This document shows, piece after piece, positions 449-59,661 of a stretch of DNA of 64,000 nt (the first letter of the stretch is position 1; every line of letters begins with the position of its first letter). The translations under genes were made by a program, and so were the position numbers. The notes under the pieces are model-generated. The model was not told the DNA's origin, searched no databases, and was given only the letters and a program-made list of their open reading frames with translations. The DNA comes from Flavihumibacter cheonanensis (GTDB taxonomy: Bacteria; Bacteroidota; Bacteroidia; Chitinophagales; Chitinophagaceae). The stretch spans positions 930,001 to 994,000 of the forward strand of contig NZ_JAKRWF010000001.1 in the NCBI RefSeq assembly GCF_022352215.1, written 5' to 3'.

Positions 449-525
449 GGAAGTGAGATGTCAGACGTGAGACGTGAAAAGTGAAAGGTGAAACGTGAAA
501 GATTGTGAAAGGTGAAAGGTGAAAA
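446..525 (+). repeat. Heptanucleotide array at the 3' end of the ROK gene
   Basis: Beginning at the TGA stop there is a TGAGGAA lead, then ten 7-base units in order: GTGAGAT, GTCAGAC, GTGAGAC, GTGAAAA, GTGAAAG, GTGAAAC, GTGAAAG, then an ATT interruption, then GTGAAAG, GTGAAAG, GTGAAAA. The array lies in the sense orientation of the upstream gene and is followed 37 bases later by a terminator hairpin. It is the left arm of a pair whose right arm is at 771-833. Function unknown. Confidence 0.9.
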
Positions 526-770: not shown

Positions 771-833
771 TTCTCACGTCTCACGTCTCACGTCTCACAT
801 TTTACCATTTTCACCTTTCACCTTTCACCTTCC
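771..833 (-). repeat. Heptanucleotide array at the 3' end of the phosphodiester glycosidase gene
   Basis: On the minus strand, in the sense of the gene that ends here, the units are GTGAAAG, GTGAAAG, GTGAAAA, a ten-base interruption, then GTGAGAC three times and GTGAGAA. The stop codon TGA of the gene at 811 is bases 2-4 of the GTGAAAA unit. The preceding two units are coding and give the terminal Lys-Val-Lys-Gly-Glu-Arg. The array is the opposite arm to 446-525 across a convergent gene gap. Confidence 0.9.
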
Positions 834-17664: not shown

Positions 17665-17723
17665 GTGAAAAGTGAAAGGGGAAAGGTGAAAAATTGTGAA
17701 AGGTGAAAAGTGAAAAGTGAAAA
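17665..17723 (+). repeat. Single-arm heptanucleotide array next to tRNA-Pro
   Basis: Units GTGAAAA, GTGAAAG, GGGAAAG, GTGAAAA, an ATT interruption, then GTGAAAG and GTGAAAA three times. The ATT interruption in the same context occurs in the array at 446-525, so the two are likely copies of one module. This copy does not begin at a stop codon and lies just beyond the tRNA terminator, antisense to the tRNA. Confidence 0.85.
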
Positions 17724-17754: not shown

Positions 17755-17828
17755 TCGGGACGACTGGATTCGAACCAGCGACCTCTTGCACCCCATGCAA
17801 ACGCGCTACCGGGCTGCGCTACGTCCCG
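17755..17828 (-). tRNA. tRNA-Pro, anticodon GGG
   Basis: On the minus strand the acceptor stem CGGGACG pairs with CGTCCCG. The D-arm is GCGCAGCCCGGTAGCGC, the anticodon stem TTTGC/GCAAG holds loop ATGGGGT with anticodon GGG, and the T-arm is CTGGTTCGAATCCAG. It reads CCC/CCU proline codons. The 3' CCA is not encoded. It is a single tRNA with its own terminator. Confidence 0.96.
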
Positions 17829-38397: not shown

Positions 38398-38434
38398 GTG
38401 AGACGTGAGACGTGAAACGTGAAAAGTAAGAAAG
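38398..38434 (+). repeat. Short heptanucleotide array, single arm
   Basis: Units GTGAGAC, GTGAGAC, GTGAAAC, GTGAAAA and a degenerate GTAAGAAAG. It lies between the hairpin at 38361 and the stop of the second receptor gene, and is antisense to that gene, unlike the paired arrays elsewhere. Confidence 0.85.
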
Positions 38435-38459: not shown

Positions 38460-40940
38460 TTAATTGCTACCTCCCATTTTTACACGGTTTTGTTCATCAT
38501 TGGCTCCACCAATTTTACGACGGGGTTGTGTTCCTTTAATTGGTTTTCCAAAGCGATAAACAAACGACAGGTTTACTACACGGGTATCGCGAAGGTTTAT
38601 AAAGCTCGCATTGGTTGTTTGGAAATTAATGGTTCCTTTTACTTTCTGCGTGTAGAACATATCTCTTACATTCAGCTTAAGCGTTCCTTTTGATTTCAAT
38701 ATCTGTTTGGAAATTCCTGCAGCTGCAGCGCCGAGGGGATCAATCAGGATTTGTCCTTCTACCCCTTTGCTTCTATACCAGCCACTGAGTTCCGCACTCC
38801 AGCCTTTTTTAAACTTGAACTGGTTGTTGATATTAGCCATGAAAGTACCTGCTGATACATCAATGGTTTCATTATTGAGTTCCCCTTTGAATTGATTGTA
38901 ATTGTAGTTGGTGTATACAATTGCTGTCCACCATTTTTGAACCGGAATCTGTGCGCTCACTGAAATACCAGCATTCTGACGGGAACCAATGTTTCCCTGG
39001 CGAACAATCGTTGCATACTCAGGTTCATTGAATTGTGGGTTTCCCTGGGAAAAGGTTTCACTGAAGAAATCCTTAGTATAACTGTAGTTCAGGGTGGTTG
39101 TCAGAAAACTGTTATAGGTATGCGTAAATTCTATGTTATGTGTGAACTGCGGTTGTAGGTAAGGGTTACCACGACCATACGTGTATTTATCCAGGAAGAA
39201 CAGGAAGGGATTCAGGTCCTGGTAAGCCGGACGGTCAATTCTCCTGCCATAAGACATTGCCAGTTGGTTTTTGTCATTGGCAGCATAACTGACAAATAAT
39301 GTTGGGAATAAACTGCCGTAATTGCGTTTGAAGCTGGAGTCTGCTCTTTGCGGGTTCCCAAACTGGTAGCCTTCATAACTGGTATGTTCGTATCGAAGGC
39401 CGGCCTGTATGCCAAATTTTTTGATCTGGCGATTGTAGTTCAGATAACCTGCAATAATATTTTCCTTGTAGTCGAAATTATTTGATTTGTCATAATCCGG
39501 TACCCATCCACCATTGATCAGGTTCGTATAACCAGCGACGTTATTGGTATTTACATAACTGGTTTTTAATCCGGCTTCCATTTTTGCGCCTTTTTTCAAT
39601 GGCTGGGTATAGTCGATTTTAGCGGAATAAATATCAATATCAATTGGCAGACGGCCTTTCAGGTGTTCGACTGTTTTGGGAGACCAGTTTGGATCATATA
39701 TAGTGTTTACAAATAATTGTTCACTATTGGATCCGTACGTGACATAGTCCAGGTCAGCAGTCAATTCTCTTCCGGTGGAGTCAAACTGGTGACGCATATT
39801 CACGTTGATGCTTTTGTTTTTCCAGAGATCCCTGTTGGAACTGGTAGCAGTTATGATAGAGTCATTTTGGGCTGCGGCGTTCATCATGTAGCTGGTATTG
39901 AGGCCAGCTTGTTTCTCCGGACTAAAGTTCCCGTTAAGTACGATACCCAATGTAGTTTTCTTATTCAGGAAATAATCCGCGCCAATTTTCATGTTATAAT
40001 TCTTGTTCTCATTCTTCATGAAGGAAGTTTGCTCGAAAATGGCGGTAAGTTCTTTTGAGCTGGCATCCGAAAATTTCCGGTTGATGTTCAATTCCTGGAA
40101 ACTGTTCCAGATGCTATATCCTCCATTGGCAAAAAAATTGAATTTGCCGGTGCGGTAGTTCAGGTTCAAACTGTTATTCGTTTTCCAATAAGCTCCCTGT
40201 CCATAATTAAGGGTTAATGTGCCATTAAAACCTTTTTGCTTATTCTTTTTGGTTTTGATGTTGATAATTCCGGAATTACCAGCTGCATCATATTTGGCAG
40301 AAGGATTGGTTACAAGTTCAATCTGATCGATGGAACTGGCTGGCATGGATTTCAATAAATTAGCCAGCTGTTCACCAGTAAGATAAGTTGGACGGCCATC
40401 CATCATTACCATGACGCTTTGTTTTCCTTTCAGGCTGATATTACCGTCCTTATCTACCATAACGCCAGGTGATTTTTCCAGTACTTCCAGGGCGGTTGCG
40501 CCAACATTGGTTACAGCTGCGTCCACATTCACAACAGTTTTGTCTATTTTCTGCTCAATGAATGGTTTACGGTGAACAACCGTAACACCTTGCATTTCAC
40601 TGGAAACAGGATTGAGTTGAATTGATGGTAATTGAATAGCAGCATTGGCAGCACTTAATTCAAATTCGGCTGAATACGCTTTTTCATGACCAATGGCAGA
40701 ATACAGCAGCAGGTAACGGCCAAAGGACAGGTCCAGGAATTCAAAATTCCCGGACTTGTCAGTTGATTGCAGTTTCACTGCAGAAGAGTCTTTTGCCAGC
40801 AGTACAGTAATGGTAACAGCTTCTGCCGGCTTTTGCTGTTTGTCCGTCACATTCCCCTTAACTGAGGTAGTGCTTTGGCCCATGCTGACGAAGGATAAGG
40901 TGGATAAGGCAATTGTCAGCAGAAAGAGTGTCTTTTTCAT
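38460..40940 (-). CDS. TonB-dependent-receptor-like outer-membrane protein, tandem paralogue
   Basis: An 826-residue protein with the same layout as the gene at 35776: signal peptide (TIALSTLSFVSMGQ), CarboxypepD_reg-like domain, plug (VNVDAAVTNVGATALEVLEKSPG; KQSVMVMMDGRPTYLTGEQ) and barrel ending VVNLSFVYRFGKPIKG. The C-terminal tail GGANDEQNRVKM resembles the DEQNRVGN tail of the paralogue. Tandem duplication is clear, and the barrel loops differ most, which suggests different ligands. A TACTTTTG -7 box on the minus strand at 40997-40990 fits its promoter. Confidence 0.88.
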   Translation of the reverse strand: MKKTLFLLTIALSTLSFVSMGQSTTSVKGNVTDKQQKPAEAVTITVLLAKDSSAVKLQSTDKSGNFEFLDLSFGRYLLLYSAIGHEKAYSAEFELSAANAAIQLPSIQLNPVSSEMQGVTVVHRKPFIEQKIDKTVVNVDAAVTNVGATALEVLEKSPGVMVDKDGNISLKGKQSVMVMMDGRPTYLTGEQLANLLKSMPASSIDQIELVTNPSAKYDAAGNSGIINIKTKKNKQKGFNGTLTLNYGQGAYWKTNNSLNLNYRTGKFNFFANGGYSIWNSFQELNINRKFSDASSKELTAIFEQTSFMKNENKNYNMKIGADYFLNKKTTLGIVLNGNFSPEKQAGLNTSYMMNAAAQNDSIITATSSNRDLWKNKSINVNMRHQFDSTGRELTADLDYVTYGSNSEQLFVNTIYDPNWSPKTVEHLKGRLPIDIDIYSAKIDYTQPLKKGAKMEAGLKTSYVNTNNVAGYTNLINGGWVPDYDKSNNFDYKENIIAGYLNYNRQIKKFGIQAGLRYEHTSYEGYQFGNPQRADSSFKRNYGSLFPTLFVSYAANDKNQLAMSYGRRIDRPAYQDLNPFLFFLDKYTYGRGNPYLQPQFTHNIEFTHTYNSFLTTTLNYSYTKDFFSETFSQGNPQFNEPEYATIVRQGNIGSRQNAGISVSAQIPVQKWWTAIVYTNYNYNQFKGELNNETIDVSAGTFMANINNQFKFKKGWSAELSGWYRSKGVEGQILIDPLGAAAAGISKQILKSKGTLKLNVRDMFYTQKVKGTINFQTTNASFINLRDTRVVNLSFVYRFGKPIKGTQPRRKIGGANDEQNRVKMGGSN

Positions 40941-45941: not shown

Positions 45942-46096
45942 GGGAGGAATGGAAGATGGAGGAATGGAAGAGGGAGAAATGGAAGAGGGAGAAATGGAGA
46001 AATGGAGGAATGGAGGAATGAAAGAGGGTAGACAGGTAGATGAACACCCCATCCTCCTTTCCCCCCATCCTCTTTTCCTCCATTCTTCCCTACCCC
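45942..46096. repeat. Purine-rich octamer repeat and its inverted counterpart
   Basis: The plus strand from 45942 to 46029 is nearly all purine with a single T about every eight bases, built from variants of GGAGAAAT and GGAGGAAT. From 46047 to 46096 it is nearly all pyrimidine, the reverse-complement type. Each arm is purine-rich in the sense strand of its adjacent convergent gene; the second arm runs into the stop of the DUF4407 gene. It could fold into a long imperfect hairpin or a triplex. Confidence 0.85.
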
Positions 46097-50111: not shown

Positions 50112-50987
50112 ATGGAAGAAACCCGAGAAATATCAGCCCTTTTTCATCTCATTGATGACCCCGATATCGAGGTGTTTTCCACAGTGAGCGACCGGATTAT
50201 CTCGCTTGGAACCAATATCATTCCAAACCTGGAACATTTGTGGGAAACGACTCCGGATGAGGCTGTTCAGGAGCGGATTGAAATGCTTATTCATCGCCTG
50301 CACTACTGTGAGTTAACCAATGATTTTCAACGATGGAAAGCACAACCTGCTCCAGATCTGCTAGGTGGGGCCCTGTTGGTTTGTAAATTTCAATACCCCG
50401 ACCTTAATGTCAGCGCTATTCTGCAGGATATTGAAAAAATGCGACGAAATATCTGGTTGGAGCTCAATAATTACCTTACGCCGCTGGAACAAACCAACGT
50501 ACTCACCACAATTCTTTATAATTACTACCATCTGAAAGGTTCTGAAATTAATTATTCAGAGCCGAATGATTTTCTATTAAATAAAGTCCTGGAAACCAAA
50601 AAAGGAAATGCCATTAGCAATGGTATTCTGTACCTGGTACTTTGCGATTTGCTCGATATTCCCATACGTGCTGTTCCTATTCCCCGGCAGTTTATACTTG
50701 CTTATTTTGATATGGAACCGGGTGTTTGGCAGGAACCTGCTTCTAACCCGATGCATCAAATTCAATTTTATATTGATCCCATGAGTGGCCAGGTATTTAC
50801 ACAAAAAGATGTGGATACCTATTTCAAAAGGATATCTGTTCCGCCTACCGCTTCCTTCTTCAAACCAATGAATACCATCCGTATCATTCAGCATTTACTC
50901 GAAGAATTTTCCCGCTGCTATGAGTCAGATAAAGATGGATATAAACAGGAGGAACTGATGAAATTGGCGCAGCTGTTGGAAACGTGA
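50112..50987 (+). CDS. SirB1/transglutaminase-like family protein
   Basis: A 291-residue protein with a SirB1-type transglutaminase-like domain: LNNYLTPLEQTNVLTTILYNYYHLKG, then KKGNAISNGILYLVLCDLLDIPIRAVPIPRQFIL (in two parts: KKGNAISNGILYLVL and CDLLDIPIRAVPIPRQF). The catalytic Cys of true transglutaminases is replaced, as is usual in SirB1-like proteins. An N-terminal helical repeat region precedes it. Function unknown. Its stop codon is embedded in the first unit of a heptamer array. Confidence 0.75.
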   Translation: MEETREISALFHLIDDPDIEVFSTVSDRIISLGTNIIPNLEHLWETTPDEAVQERIEMLIHRLHYCELTNDFQRWKAQPAPDLLGGALLVCKFQYPDLNVSAILQDIEKMRRNIWLELNNYLTPLEQTNVLTTILYNYYHLKGSEINYSEPNDFLLNKVLETKKGNAISNGILYLVLCDLLDIPIRAVPIPRQFILAYFDMEPGVWQEPASNPMHQIQFYIDPMSGQVFTQKDVDTYFKRISVPPTASFFKPMNTIRIIQHLLEEFSRCYESDKDGYKQEELMKLAQLLET

Positions 50988-51056
50988 GACGTCAGACGTG
51001 AGACGTCAGACGTGAGACGTGAAAAGTGAAAGGTGAAAGAGAGTGAAAGGTGAAAC
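50984..51056 (+). repeat. Heptanucleotide array at the 3' end of the SirB1-like gene
   Basis: Ten units: GTGAGAC and GTCAGAC alternating twice each, GTGAGAC, GTGAAAA, GTGAAAG, GTGAAAG, a three-base AGA interruption, GTGAAAG and GTGAAAC. The gene's TGA stop is bases 2-4 of the first unit. The order from GTGAGAC-type to GTGAAAG-type is the same as in the array at 446. Confidence 0.92.
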
Positions 51057-51092
51057 ATGAGTTCTCTGAGGTTTAAGCATCCAAATAAAATA

Positions 51093-51122
51093 ATAAAAGC
51101 CCGCAGAAATGCGGGCTTTTAT
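51093..51122. terminator. Bidirectional terminator between the arrays
   Basis: Perfect 13-base stem ATAAAAGCCCGCA / TGCGGGCTTTTAT with a GAAA loop. A/T ends serve both convergent transcripts. It lies midway between the two array arms. Confidence 0.9.
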
Positions 51123-51133
51123 TTTAGAGATTT

Positions 51134-51202
51134 GTCTCACGTCTCACGTCTGACGTTTCACCTTCCTCACAGCTCCCATCCTTTTCTTCTTTCACGTTTC
51201 AC
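51134..51202 (-). repeat. Heptanucleotide array at the 3' end of the oxidoreductase gene
   Basis: On the minus strand: GTGAAAC, GTGAAAG within the coding end (51202-51189), then the coding tail and the stop in TGTGAGGAAG, then GTGAAAC, GTCAGAC, GTGAGAC, GTGAGAC. The gene's C-terminal Val-Lys-Arg-Glu-Arg is encoded by the first units. It mirrors 50984-51056. Confidence 0.9.
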
Positions 51203-52588
51203 GAACTGGTTGGCTTCTTCGAAATTGGTGATTTTCATATTCTTCGCATCCCATAACAATTTCTTACGACCCAGGTATTTGTCGTTCCAACCTTTCAGGT
51301 TGGGATTTTTCATCATCCAGCTGCGAATCGCCAGGTTACCGATGAGAATACTTTCTGTAAATGGTCCCGCATATTCAAAAGGAGAACTGGTTTTTCCTTT
51401 TCCATGACCTGCAATACAAGCATATACCCATTGTGCATAATGCCCTTCTGGTACTCTTGCGATGGTTGGCGCTGGCAGGCTTTCCTGCATTTTGGTTGTA
51501 GGCAGCAAACGCGGATTTTCACCATAGCAATCAGCCAAAAGTTTCCCTTTAGTTCCTTCAAAGAGGATTCCACCATCCCAATTGCCAAATGCTTCTCCCG
51601 GTAACAATTCATCCGGACGGTTTGGCAGAAGGCCACCATCGTACCAGGAAATTTTAATATTACCTTTTCCATCCGTTCTGGGGTAATCCAGGTGGATGAT
51701 AGAAGAAGGAGGACATCCATCCGGATTGGAGCTTTCAACCCACATATCCTGCCAGATATTGGCAACACTGCACTCAACTGAACTTGGATAAAGAATGGGC
51801 AATATCCGGAATGCCGGATCCAAAATATGACAGGCCATATCACCCAGGGCACCGGTTCCGAACGCCCACCAGCCTCTCCAATTGAAGGGCAGGTAAGCTG
51901 GGTTATAATCAATGTGCTGTGCAGGACCAAGCCAAAGGTCCCAATTCAGTTCTTTTGGAATATCATGTTTACCGGAAGGTGTAGGAATACCTTGTGGCCA
52001 AACCGGACGATTGGTCCAGGCATGTACCGTATGAACATCCCCAATCATGCCCGCATCAATGAGTTCTTTTGCTCTTCGAACTCCATCCCCACTACCTCCC
52101 TGGTTTCCCATTTGGGTAACCACTTTGTATTTTTTGGCAGCTTCGGTTAACAAACGTGCTTCATAAATATCGTGGGTTAGTGGTTTCTGTGTATAAACAT
52201 GCTTTCCTAACTGCATGGCTGCAAGGGTAGCATTAGCATGCGTGTGGTCAGGAGTAGAAATGGAAACCGCATCGATCTGGTTTTTGTGTTTTTCCAGCAT
52301 GTCCCGGAAATCCTTATAATAAGGCGCTTTGGGATGTGCCTGGCGTGACTTGGCCGCTGCCCTGTCATCCACATCGCAGAGCGCAACAATATTTACTTTG
52401 CCGGTTTTGTAAAACTCTGCAAGGTCGCTGGTGCCTTTACCTCCGGCACCAATTCCTGCAACATTCAGTGTATCACTGGGTGCAACAAAGCCTTTTCCTA
52501 AAACATGGCGGGGTACAATGAAAAAACCTGCGGCTGCTGCAGTCGAATTCCGAAGGAATTTTCTACGCGATGGCGATAAACGGGGCAT
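51167..52588 (-). CDS. Gfo/Idh/MocA family oxidoreductase, Tat-exported
   Basis: About 473 residues. The N-terminal Tat signal has SRRKFLRNS followed by AAAAGFFIVP. The NAD-binding fold starts LNVAGIGAGGKGTSDLAEF, with the conserved DHTHANATLAAMQLGKHVYTQKP (in parts: DHTHANATLAAMQLGK, HVYTQKPL) and HDIPKELNWDLWLGP, typical of secreted Bacteroidota sugar dehydrogenases. It probably oxidises a sugar derivative in the periplasm. Start chosen at the ATG before the twin-arginine motif. The C-terminus runs into the heptamer array. Confidence 0.88.
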   Translation of the reverse strand: MPRLSPSRRKFLRNSTAAAAGFFIVPRHVLGKGFVAPSDTLNVAGIGAGGKGTSDLAEFYKTGKVNIVALCDVDDRAAAKSRQAHPKAPYYKDFRDMLEKHKNQIDAVSISTPDHTHANATLAAMQLGKHVYTQKPLTHDIYEARLLTEAAKKYKVVTQMGNQGGSGDGVRRAKELIDAGMIGDVHTVHAWTNRPVWPQGIPTPSGKHDIPKELNWDLWLGPAQHIDYNPAYLPFNWRGWWAFGTGALGDMACHILDPAFRILPILYPSSVECSVANIWQDMWVESSNPDGCPPSSIIHLDYPRTDGKGNIKISWYDGGLLPNRPDELLPGEAFGNWDGGILFEGTKGKLLADCYGENPRLLPTTKMQESLPAPTIARVPEGHYAQWVYACIAGHGKGKTSSPFEYAGPFTESILIGNLAIRSWMMKNPNLKGWNDKYLGRKKLLWDAKNMKITNFEEANQFVKRERRKGWEL

Positions 52589-58289: not shown

Positions 58290-58430
58290 ATGAACAGACT
58301 ACGTCACCCTTTGAAAAACACCCGCGAGATCAGCGTGTGGCAATTGACAACCAAACTTGTTTTATTGGCAGGCGTTCTAATGGCCTACTCGTATTGCTTT
58401 CTGCTTACTGTTGGAAGCATGCTGAAGTGA
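58290..58430 (+). CDS. 46-residue single-span membrane microprotein
   Basis: An ATG-initiated frame of 46 residues: a basic N-terminus (NRLRHPLKNTREI) followed by one hydrophobic segment of about 22 residues (LVLLAGVLMAYSYCFLLTVG). It has its own consensus promoter and ends inside a heptamer array, whose first unit supplies the stop codon, followed by a terminator. No family recognised. It could be a membrane regulator or a toxin-like peptide, but nothing in the sequence decides that. Confidence 0.5.
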   Translation: MNRLRHPLKNTREISVWQLTTKLVLLAGVLMAYSYCFLLTVGSMLK

Positions 58431-58454
58431 GACGTCAGACGTGAGATGTGAGAA
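58427..58454 (+). repeat. Heptanucleotide array at the 3' end of the microprotein gene
   Basis: Four units: GTGAGAC, GTCAGAC, GTGAGAT, GTGAGAA. The stop TGA is bases 2-4 of the first unit. The first 20 bases are the exact complement of the right arm at 58531-58550, giving a long outer stem around the terminator at 58484. Confidence 0.92.
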
Positions 58455-58483: not shown

Positions 58484-58517
58484 AAAACCCGTAAGAGAAT
58501 TTCTCCTACGGGTTTTT
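58484..58517. terminator. Bidirectional terminator between array arms
   Basis: Stem AAAACCCGTA / TACGGGTTTT with an inner GAGAA / TTCTC extension. A and T runs on both sides allow bidirectional termination. It lies between the arms at 58427 and 58530. Confidence 0.88.
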
Positions 58518-58529
58518 ATATTTTTTGAC

Positions 58530-58578
58530 GTCTCACGTCTGACGTCTCACTTTTCACCTTTCACCTTTCACCTTTCAC
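58530..58578 (-). repeat. Heptanucleotide array at the 3' end of pdhB
   Basis: Minus-strand units in gene order: GTGAAAG three times, GTGAAAA, GTGAGAC, GTCAGAC, GTGAGAC. The pdhB stop TGA (58577-58575) is bases 2-4 of the first GTGAAAG. Confidence 0.92.
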
Positions 58579-59564
58579 TTCTTCATATACATCACTTCCT
58601 TTACCAGCTTTACCGTTCTTGCAACATCTGGTAAAGCAGCAGCTACCAGATTGGGAGCATAGTGCAACGGTGCATCTGCAGCTGTTATCCTGCGAATCGG
58701 TGCATCGAGGTAATCAAATCCTTCTTTTTGGATCCGGTAGGAAATTTCAGAAGAGATGGATGCAAATGGCCACTGTTCTTCAACAATAACCAGGCGATTG
58801 GTCTTCTTTACACTTTCAAGGATGGTCATCCAGTCGAGCGGACGAATGGTTCTTAGGTCAATCACCTCCGCGTTTACACCTTCTTTTTCCAGTTCAGCAG
58901 CTGCTCCTAAAGCAACTTTCATCATTTTATTGAATGAAACGATGGTAACATCGGATCCTGCTTTTTTTACATCTGCTTTACCTAACGGGATATAGTACTC
59001 TTCTTCAGGAACTTCCGACTTATCGCCGTACATTAATTCAGACTCCATGAAAATCACGGGATCCTCTTCGTAACGAATGGCTTGCTTCAACAATCCTTTT
59101 GCATCGTAACCATTAGATGGGGATACTACTTTGATGCCCGGAATATTGGCATAATAACTTTCGAATGCAGTAGAGTGCTGGGCTCCTAATTGTCCGGCTG
59201 AACCATTGGGTCCACGAAATACGATGGGACAGGAAATCTGACCTCCACTCATCGCAAGCATTTTAGAAGCTGTATTCAGAATCTGGTCAAGTGCCAGAAC
59301 AGCGAAGTTCCAGGTCATGAATTCAACAATGGGACGCAGGCCGTTCTGAGCTGCACCAACTGCAACTGCAGCAAATCCAAGTTCAGAAATTGGGGTATCG
59401 ATCACTCGTTTTTCACCAAATTCATCGAGCATACCCTGGCTAACTTTGTAGGCTCCATTGTATTCAGCCACTTCCTCTCCCATCAGGAATACGCGATCAT
59501 CGCGACGGAACTCTTCATTCATTGCTTCGCGCAGCGCTTCTCTAAATGCAATTGATCTTGCCAT
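58575..59564 (-). CDS. pdhB: Pyruvate dehydrogenase E1 component, beta subunit
   Basis: About 329 residues. Begins MARSIAFREALREAMNEEF, then VFLMGEEVAEYNGAYKVSQG, TPISELGFAAVAVGAA, IVFRGPNG, PVIFMESELMYG and VIDLRTIRPLDW, all E1-beta blocks. With E1-alpha (not in the window) it decarboxylates pyruvate and reductively acetylates the lipoyl arm of E2; a branched-chain oxoacid E1-beta is the main alternative. Start chosen at ATG 59564; the upstream frame lacks family similarity. The stop opens the heptamer array. Confidence 0.93.
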   Translation of the reverse strand: MARSIAFREALREAMNEEFRRDDRVFLMGEEVAEYNGAYKVSQGMLDEFGEKRVIDTPISELGFAAVAVGAAQNGLRPIVEFMTWNFAVLALDQILNTASKMLAMSGGQISCPIVFRGPNGSAGQLGAQHSTAFESYYANIPGIKVVSPSNGYDAKGLLKQAIRYEEDPVIFMESELMYGDKSEVPEEEYYIPLGKADVKKAGSDVTIVSFNKMMKVALGAAAELEKEGVNAEVIDLRTIRPLDWMTILESVKKTNRLVIVEEQWPFASISSEISYRIQKEGFDYLDAPIRRITAADAPLHYAPNLVAAALPDVARTVKLVKEVMYMKK

Positions 59565-59637
59565 TCTTTTGTTTTTATAAGGAGTGGCAAATTTATTGGT
59601 TACACTCCAAATGCGCAAAAAATCCCCCATAAATGCC

Positions 59638-59661
59638 AAAAGCCCCGGTAAGGGGGCTTTT
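59638..59661 (-). terminator. Terminator of the S41 protease gene
   Basis: Stem AAAAGCCCC / GGGGCTTTT on the minus strand with a short loop and a T-tract, about 18 bases past the stop. It separates the protease gene from pdhB. Confidence 0.8.

Follow-up and report, generated by a model that had tools for sequence, protein, structure and literature searches.

GTGARAN heptamer arrays at gene ends of Flavihumibacter cheonanensis: a dispersed four-unit repeat family with the TGA stop as a likely by-product

Why do several genes in a 64,000-nt stretch of the Flavihumibacter cheonanensis genome (contig NZ_JAKRWF010000001.1, positions 930,001 to 994,000; the window) end on a TGA that belongs to a tandem heptamer repeat, GTGARAN? 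The preliminary description of this DNA had placed the TGA at bases 2-4 of the first unit in four array arms. This is the case for three of them (50985-50987, 58428-58430 and 58577-58575), whereas the stop at 813-811 lies in the third unit, the units of this minus-strand array spanning 828-822, 821-815 and 814-808. It is likely that the arrays represent a dispersed four-heptamer family residing at gene ends, and that the TGA stop is a by-product of the repeat and not its reason. All features of the window are collected in Table 1.

Table 1. GTGARAN arrays and terminator-like hairpins, in window coordinates.
Feature	Position	Strand	Context
GTGARAN array, 10 units with 3-nt joint	453..525	+	after end of ROK-family gene; the gene's stop TGA 446-448 lies earlier, in the TGAGGAAG lead
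GTGARAN array	771..828	-	third unit holds stop TGA 813-811 of ORF 811-1908 (Pfam NAGPA); encoded tail VKGER
Two 4-unit modules joined by ATT	17665..17723	+	no sense gene end within range; on far side of a T-run hairpin (read by eye) after minus-strand tRNA 17755-17828
4-unit block	38398..38425	+	antisense to gene ending at 38460; upstream of a minus-strand gene start
Array	50984..51056	+	unit 1 holds stop TGA 50985-50987 of ORF 50112-50987 (Transglut_core2)
Terminator-like hairpin	51092..51123	.	between two facing arrays; framed stretch with RNA fold z = -10.4
Facing array, 4 units	51134..51161	-	Gfo/Idh/MocA gene 51167-52588; stop TGA 51169-51167 lies earlier, in the GTGAGGAAG lead
4-unit block	58427..58454	+	unit 1 holds stop TGA 58428-58430 of 46-aa ORF 58290-58430
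Terminator-like hairpin	58484..58516	.	between facing arrays; framed stretch with RNA fold z = -9.2
8-unit array	58523..58578	-	unit 1 holds stop TGA 58577-58575 of ORF 58575-59639 (transketolase pyrimidine-binding and C-terminal domains)

In the two remaining arms the stop had been assigned to a shared lead, and TGAGGAAG is indeed present at both places (446-453 and 51169-51162) with the gene stop inside it. The lead occurs three times among the 36 arrays tabulated below (800 kb), and in the third occurrence (G000:C110:532181) its TGA is not the stop. An Rfam scan of the window returned the tRNA alone. Within the Gfo/Idh gene, a GTGAAACGTGAAAG doublet (51189-51202, minus strand) encodes VKRER, residues that are identical in the relative G001, and it has the appearance of native coding DNA rather than of an array. 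Elsewhere in the window (45942-46078), a purine-rich tandem repeat has a 15-bp unit, GGGAGGAATGGAAGA, with a 16-bp repeat close by.

Hereafter G000 denotes this genome, in which the window sits in contig C110, G004 the sister species, and other G numbers the genomes of relatives. Tandem GTGARAN doublets (GTGARANGTGARAN) are far more frequent than chance would allow, with 266 + 230 matches in the 4.84-Mb genome, compared with 8 + 9 for the reversed pattern. We tabulated the stretch C110:470001-1270000 (800 kb, about one sixth of the genome), which contained 36 arrays; an array was defined as at least three units, its detection in G000 presupposes the motif, and genes were called by a purpose-written script instead of a standard gene finder. 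In the stretch 870-1270 kb, 20 arrays were present at a threshold of at least two units and 17 at at least three, and each of the latter 17 had a counterpart array in G004, sites being paired by gene context and flanks.

The arrays have a characteristic length. Counting only runs with at least three perfect units, 30 of the 44 in-phase runs in G000 consisted of four units, six of three, and two each of five, six, seven and eight. The peak at four was weaker elsewhere (9 of 19 runs in G004; 11 of 25 in G041, where 10 runs had three units). Longer arrays were often 4+4 modules with a joint of 1-3 nt. The basic block is four degenerate heptamers, (GTGARAN)4, of about 28-31 nt with its joint, occurring singly or as two or more modules.

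The blocks also have a characteristic position. The nearest gene end was in sense orientation for 30 of the 36 G000 arrays (p=7e-5); three arrays had every gene end more than 150 nt away. In G004 the corresponding number was 12 of 17 (p=0.14), one of the five antisense cases being the place of the 46-aa gene, which was not added there. Of the six G000 arrays with antisense orientation, three (C110:924855, 968398 and 996493) were located upstream of an ORF, on the strand that does not code for it. A same-strand gene end was found within the search range for 29 of the 36 arrays; the seven without one become six when the 46-aa gene (58290-58430), overlooked by the gene caller and an additional case of offset +1, is included. 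Among these 29, the gene stop fell in unit 1 in six cases, in unit 3 in seven, in unit 5 in one (offsets +1, +15 and +29 from the array start) and before the array in 15 (offsets -4 to -73); one of the +1 cases (C110:744578) depends on a questionable ORF of 67 aa that points at the end of a 326-aa gene. All stops except that at -73 lay between -31 and +29. GAA preceded unit 1 in 15 of the 36 arrays. The counts in relatives were two stops at +1, three at +15 and six before the array in G004 (n=11), and one at +8, two at +15 and six before the array in G014 (n=9). In G041, which belongs to another genus, all 16 stops preceded the array. The G014 and G041 stretches had been picked around known matches; for G041, duplicate arrays from two overlapping stretches were dropped, and one stretch was omitted from the run-length and frame counts. 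Among sense arrays, 11 of 29 in G000 and 8 of 11 in G004 had a hairpin on the downstream side alone, and 2 of 29 and 0 of 11, respectively, on the upstream side alone; these figures are no more than indicative, given the ad hoc thresholds of the finder.

As for the TGA itself, the preliminary description had argued that a random insertion would not land on this codon so often. Since most units carry TGA at bases 2-4 and 7 mod 3 is 1, a reading frame entering an array will nearly always meet a stop in unit 1, 2 or 3. The first stop was indeed found there (offset 1, 8 or 15) in 95 of the 108 frames of the 36 G000 arrays; of the other 13, five ended elsewhere in the array (offsets 2, 22 and 29) and eight were open. 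Few frames stay open because nearly every unit holds TGA and each 7-nt step shifts the frame by one. All three frames were closed in 28 of the 36 arrays and two in the other eight, while only 20% of letter-shuffled arrays closed three; in G004, 11, 5 and 1 arrays closed three, two and one frames (n=17). With 95 of 108 frames stopping at units 1-3 anyway, an insertion aimed at TGA is unnecessary. The position of the in-array stops therefore holds no extra coincidence, and the one that had been noticed is explained and ordinary.

In-array stops were not enriched in unit 1 (6 of 14; binomial test against 1/3, p=0.57). A point against the by-product reading is that stops in the frame of unit 2 (unit 2 or 5) were rare among them (1 of 14 against 1/3, p=0.045, a class chosen post hoc); unit-2 stops exist, however, in G014 (1 of 9) and in the GTAAGAN sister family of G001 (1 of 10 runs). 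Stops before the array showed no preferred phase, with 3, 2, 2, 1, 3, 2 and 2 cases in offset classes 0 to 6 modulo 7 (n=15, derived by hand). An even spread of stops over unit phase, which the preliminary description had set against its own proposal, thus holds over the 800 kb for the 15 pre-array stops, whereas the phase of the in-array stops is nearly forced by arithmetic.

Most blocks, then, follow or straddle the stop codon of a gene in the sense direction and precede the terminator, and facing pairs are frequent. Where the left edge of a block extends into the final codons, a TGA of the block becomes the stop of the gene. As to how this came about, blocks might be copied or rewritten between sites, those arising inside genes would be removed by purifying selection, and the core GTnAnA may be recognised by a nucleic-acid-binding factor or by the copying enzyme. 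Neither a protein recognising the units nor an enzyme copying the blocks was found in this analysis.

Could the array instead be kept as a fail-safe stop, its tandem TGAs catching read-through or frameshifted ribosomes in every frame? The closure of three frames in most arrays and the sense orientation at most gene ends would suit such a role, as would the GTAAGAN family of G001, which has TAA at the same unit position. We nevertheless regard it as improbable. Units with GTCA, in which TCA replaces TGA and no stop is left, make up 12% (23/188) of units in G000 and 19% (20/103) in G004. Between these two species, the difference rates at unit positions 1 to 7 were 0.05, 0.10, 0.19, 0.02, 0.32, 0.04 and 0.48 (flanks 0.085), as estimated for arrays picked by pattern in G000 and from alignments able to slip by whole units. 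Among positions 1, 2, 3, 4 and 6, conservation is lowest at position 3, the central base of TGA, which changed in 18 of 94 comparisons, against 20 of 371 for positions 1, 2, 4 and 6 pooled (p=7e-5), the difference from position 2 alone being non-significant (18/94 vs 9/93, p=0.09). As the middle base of the TGA is the least conserved of the core, the stop looks like a by-product. Arrays without any sense gene end, and the lack of in-array stops in G041, are likewise at odds with a fail-safe. Finally, pure GGGAATC, as read from the heptamer, has zero stops in any forward frame, yet the GGGAATC repeats of Xanthomonas also occur at stop codons according to the available text of PMC4692102, which marks the stop as incidental. 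The replacement stop suggested by the preliminary description is borne out as an outcome, the array TGA ending the gene, often at the codon used by the orthologue (see below), while its reading as a purpose finds no support, given the lack of unit-1 enrichment and the weak conservation of the G of TGA.

A second possibility, raised by the preliminary description itself, is that the repeat needs a TGA-containing target, i.e. a native stop codon, to start an array, which slippage then extends. Array starts do cluster near stops, and with GAA so frequent before unit 1, native ends such as AAG-TGA could seed an array. To the comparison of stops in related species, which the preliminary description had asked for, we submitted seven genes with in-array stops (870-1270 kb) and their orthologues in G001, G006, G011, G012 and G013, excluding those with less than 50% identity, less than 70% coverage or more than 12 unmatched C-terminal residues; 23 gene-species cells passed. 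The comparison did reveal altered stops: the orthologues ended in TAA in 13 cells, TAG in seven and TGA in three, and in 14 of 23 cells the codon position of the stop was unchanged. Where an array-free gene ends in TGA in G000, 56 of 134 orthologue cells also had TGA (vs 3/23, Fisher p=0.0095, cells being phylogenetically non-independent). For all array-free genes the proportion was 152 of 624 (p=0.32); the difference is non-significant, and the target sites thus give no indication of a surplus of TGA. Slippage, moreover, predicts locus-specific units and falling copy numbers, yet one degenerate unit is found at hundreds of places and exactly four units prevail. A TGA target is thus very improbable, and the array TGAs seem, from these alignments, to have replaced older TAA or TAG stops.

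Individual genes illustrate the replacement. The stop codon of the transketolase-domain gene (58575-59639) has an identical position in the 13 same-genus genomes with an orthologue (15 searched); it is TGA in all four with a GTGARAN array, and TAA in six, TAG in two and TGA in one of the nine without. At the gene ending at C110:1114088, the sister species reads AAA-TAG-TGAGATG where AAG-TGA-AAGG is found here. In the +15 cases, the array adds a short encoded tail to the protein. A 705-aa gene, presumably MutS2, has its tail VKGER from the array and different tails in other species, and the gene at C110:1114169 has VKSER here but AIGNRQ in G001, where the tail is encoded by a different heptamer array of that genome's own. 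The 46-aa gene has an orthologue in all five outside species tested; it is four codons shorter than in four of them and equal in length to that of G001.

The facing pairs raise a third alternative, hairpin elements of the REPIN type mobilised by a RAYT transposase. REPIN/RAYT elements are short dispersed intergenic repeats, often in inverted pairs, and RAYTs belong to the Y1_Tnp family (PF01797). Ten facing pairs account for 20 of the 36 G000 arrays, at two window loci the arms can form long stems round a terminator-like hairpin in predicted RNA folds (z values in Table 1), and the array-rich genomes G014, G034 and G041 have a PF01797 match over the cut-off. This explanation is nonetheless hardly credible: GTGARAN arrays are tandem heptamers and the transposase family does not track them, being without a match in array-rich G004, G005 (55% complete) and G008, with a single match below the cut-off in G000, and over the cut-off in array-free G007, G015, G016, G017, G019 and G021, while the two arms of one locus resemble each other no more than arms taken from separate loci do (10 pairs in G000, p=0.18; 5 pairs in G004, p=0.88). 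This non-significant likeness also led us to reject the idea that paired arms evolve in concert. A mobile palindrome carrying its own terminator was discarded as well, the three terminators in the window differing in sequence. Reverse transcriptase (PF00078) was likewise rejected, with matches in four of 17 genomes (G002, G003, G012 and G014), only one of which is array-rich. As a separate observation, GTGARAN units in G041 are frequently arranged as compact palindromes, in which each arm has about 3-4 units and the loop is short; these lie at some distance from the stop codon.

Returning to the reading of a dispersed four-heptamer family, its distribution is patchy. GTGARAN triplets are plentiful in five same-genus genomes (G000, G004, G005, G008 and G014), nearly lacking in G013 (two) and absent from nine others of the genus; outside it, two genera of the same family (G034 and G041) again have them in plenty. 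A search of the open-licence PMC literature for the exact repeat strings, and for Flavihumibacter with tandem repeat, returned nothing on this family. The GTGARAN blocks resemble a little-understood repeat type of Xanthomonas. In the available text of PMC4692102, GGGAATC/GGGANTN of Xanthomonas and GGGGA(C/T)T of Nostoc are described as degenerate, genome-dispersed and transcribed heptamers, variable at positions 5 and 7, most commonly of four units (a preference tied there to G-quadruplex formation) and at sites largely shared by sister species; facing pairs are reported for Xanthomonas. As far as this text allows comparison, GTGARAN is likewise a dispersed tandem heptamer with positions 5 and 7 the most variable (0.32 and 0.48; others 0.02-0.19) and a preference for four units (30/44 runs in G000), and it shares with the Xanthomonas repeats the placement at gene ends, the facing pairs and the sites common to sister species. 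It differs from what that text describes in belonging to another phylum and being another heptamer without G-tracts, which excludes an ordinary G-quadruplex; unlike GGGAATC, its unit contains a stop codon and position 3 also varies (G/C). A GGG run was found in none of the 36 G000 arrays, and (GGGANTN)3 had no match in G000, G004, G008, G014, G001 and G011 and one in G041. As GTGARAN has no G-runs, the link with G-quadruplexes cannot be general, and the preference for four units must here have another cause.

Another precedent concerns the closure of frames. The accessible portion of PMC4679880 describes TAACTGA direct repeats in Beggiatoaceae, cyanobacteria and some Bacteroidetes, a heptamer of fixed sequence that holds stop codons and closes three frames, so that forward repeats come to lie at ORF ends; in the chief genome studied, they are located mainly just upstream of start codons. 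GTGARAN stops close all three frames of most arrays in the same manner, and the explanation for a placement at ORF ends is in this respect already published (PMC4679880). GTGARAN differs from the repeat described in that portion by its degenerate, other unit and by arrays that are mostly sense at gene ends.

It is possible, though we put this forward tentatively and as the less likely case, that four-heptamer blocks constitute a general, sequence-flexible class of bacterial gene-end elements, in which the 4 x 7 layout is kept across phyla, positions 5 and 7 are free, and the heptamer itself is swapped (GTGARAN, GTAAGAN, GGGANTN). If so, the layout would point to a dedicated copying enzyme or to an RNA- or DNA-binding protein with a four-fold 7-nt footprint, and not to a G-quadruplex or replication slippage. 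Independently of this possibility, GTGARAN is free of G-runs and yet shows the Xanthomonas-like preference for four units, most variable positions and placement at gene ends, which weakens the G-quadruplex as a general cause. Because members of a single genus either carry or lack each family, it is testable how such repeats originate.

Other heptamers occur in G001, which has no GTGARAN triplets. Of the gene ends compared, two (C110:910351 and 981167) have GTAAGAN arrays in G001 and another (1114169) has a GGCAATA array. In GTAAGAN, TAA occupies the position of TGA in GTGARAN, and four of 10 runs have four units; GTAAGAG triplets were found in G001 (20) and G032 (3) among 74 genomes. In the stretch G001:C11:272001-672000, the genome's own heptamers GTAAGAN, GGCAATA and GGGAATA stand at at least three gene ends that bear GTGARAN in G000.

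Within the genus, heptamer arrays are limited in generality, with almost none in G006, G011 and G012 in 200 kb each. Intergenic lag-7 runs per 200 kb numbered 1 in G006, 0 in G011, 0 in G012 and 2 in G013; in 400 kb, G000 had 15 and G004 had 12, and G001 had 7. In 1.08 Mb of sequence from other genomes, comprising 80 loci, simple runs were absent at lags 3-6 and numbered 15 at lag 7 (five of them from the two closest relatives), 3, 2, 2, 1, 0 and 0 at lags 8-13, and 21, 7, 5, 0, 4, 2, 0 and 6 at lags 14-21. In G011 and G013, where the heptamer family is lacking or nearly so, intergenic repeats of period 11 were present instead (five and four runs in 200 kb). Lastly, an array of another heptamer, ATTCATA, adjoins a GTGAGAN array in both sister species (G000:C110:1039948-1039973; G004:C11:172722); the GTGAGAN units differ between the two, and the downstream sequence compared is identical.
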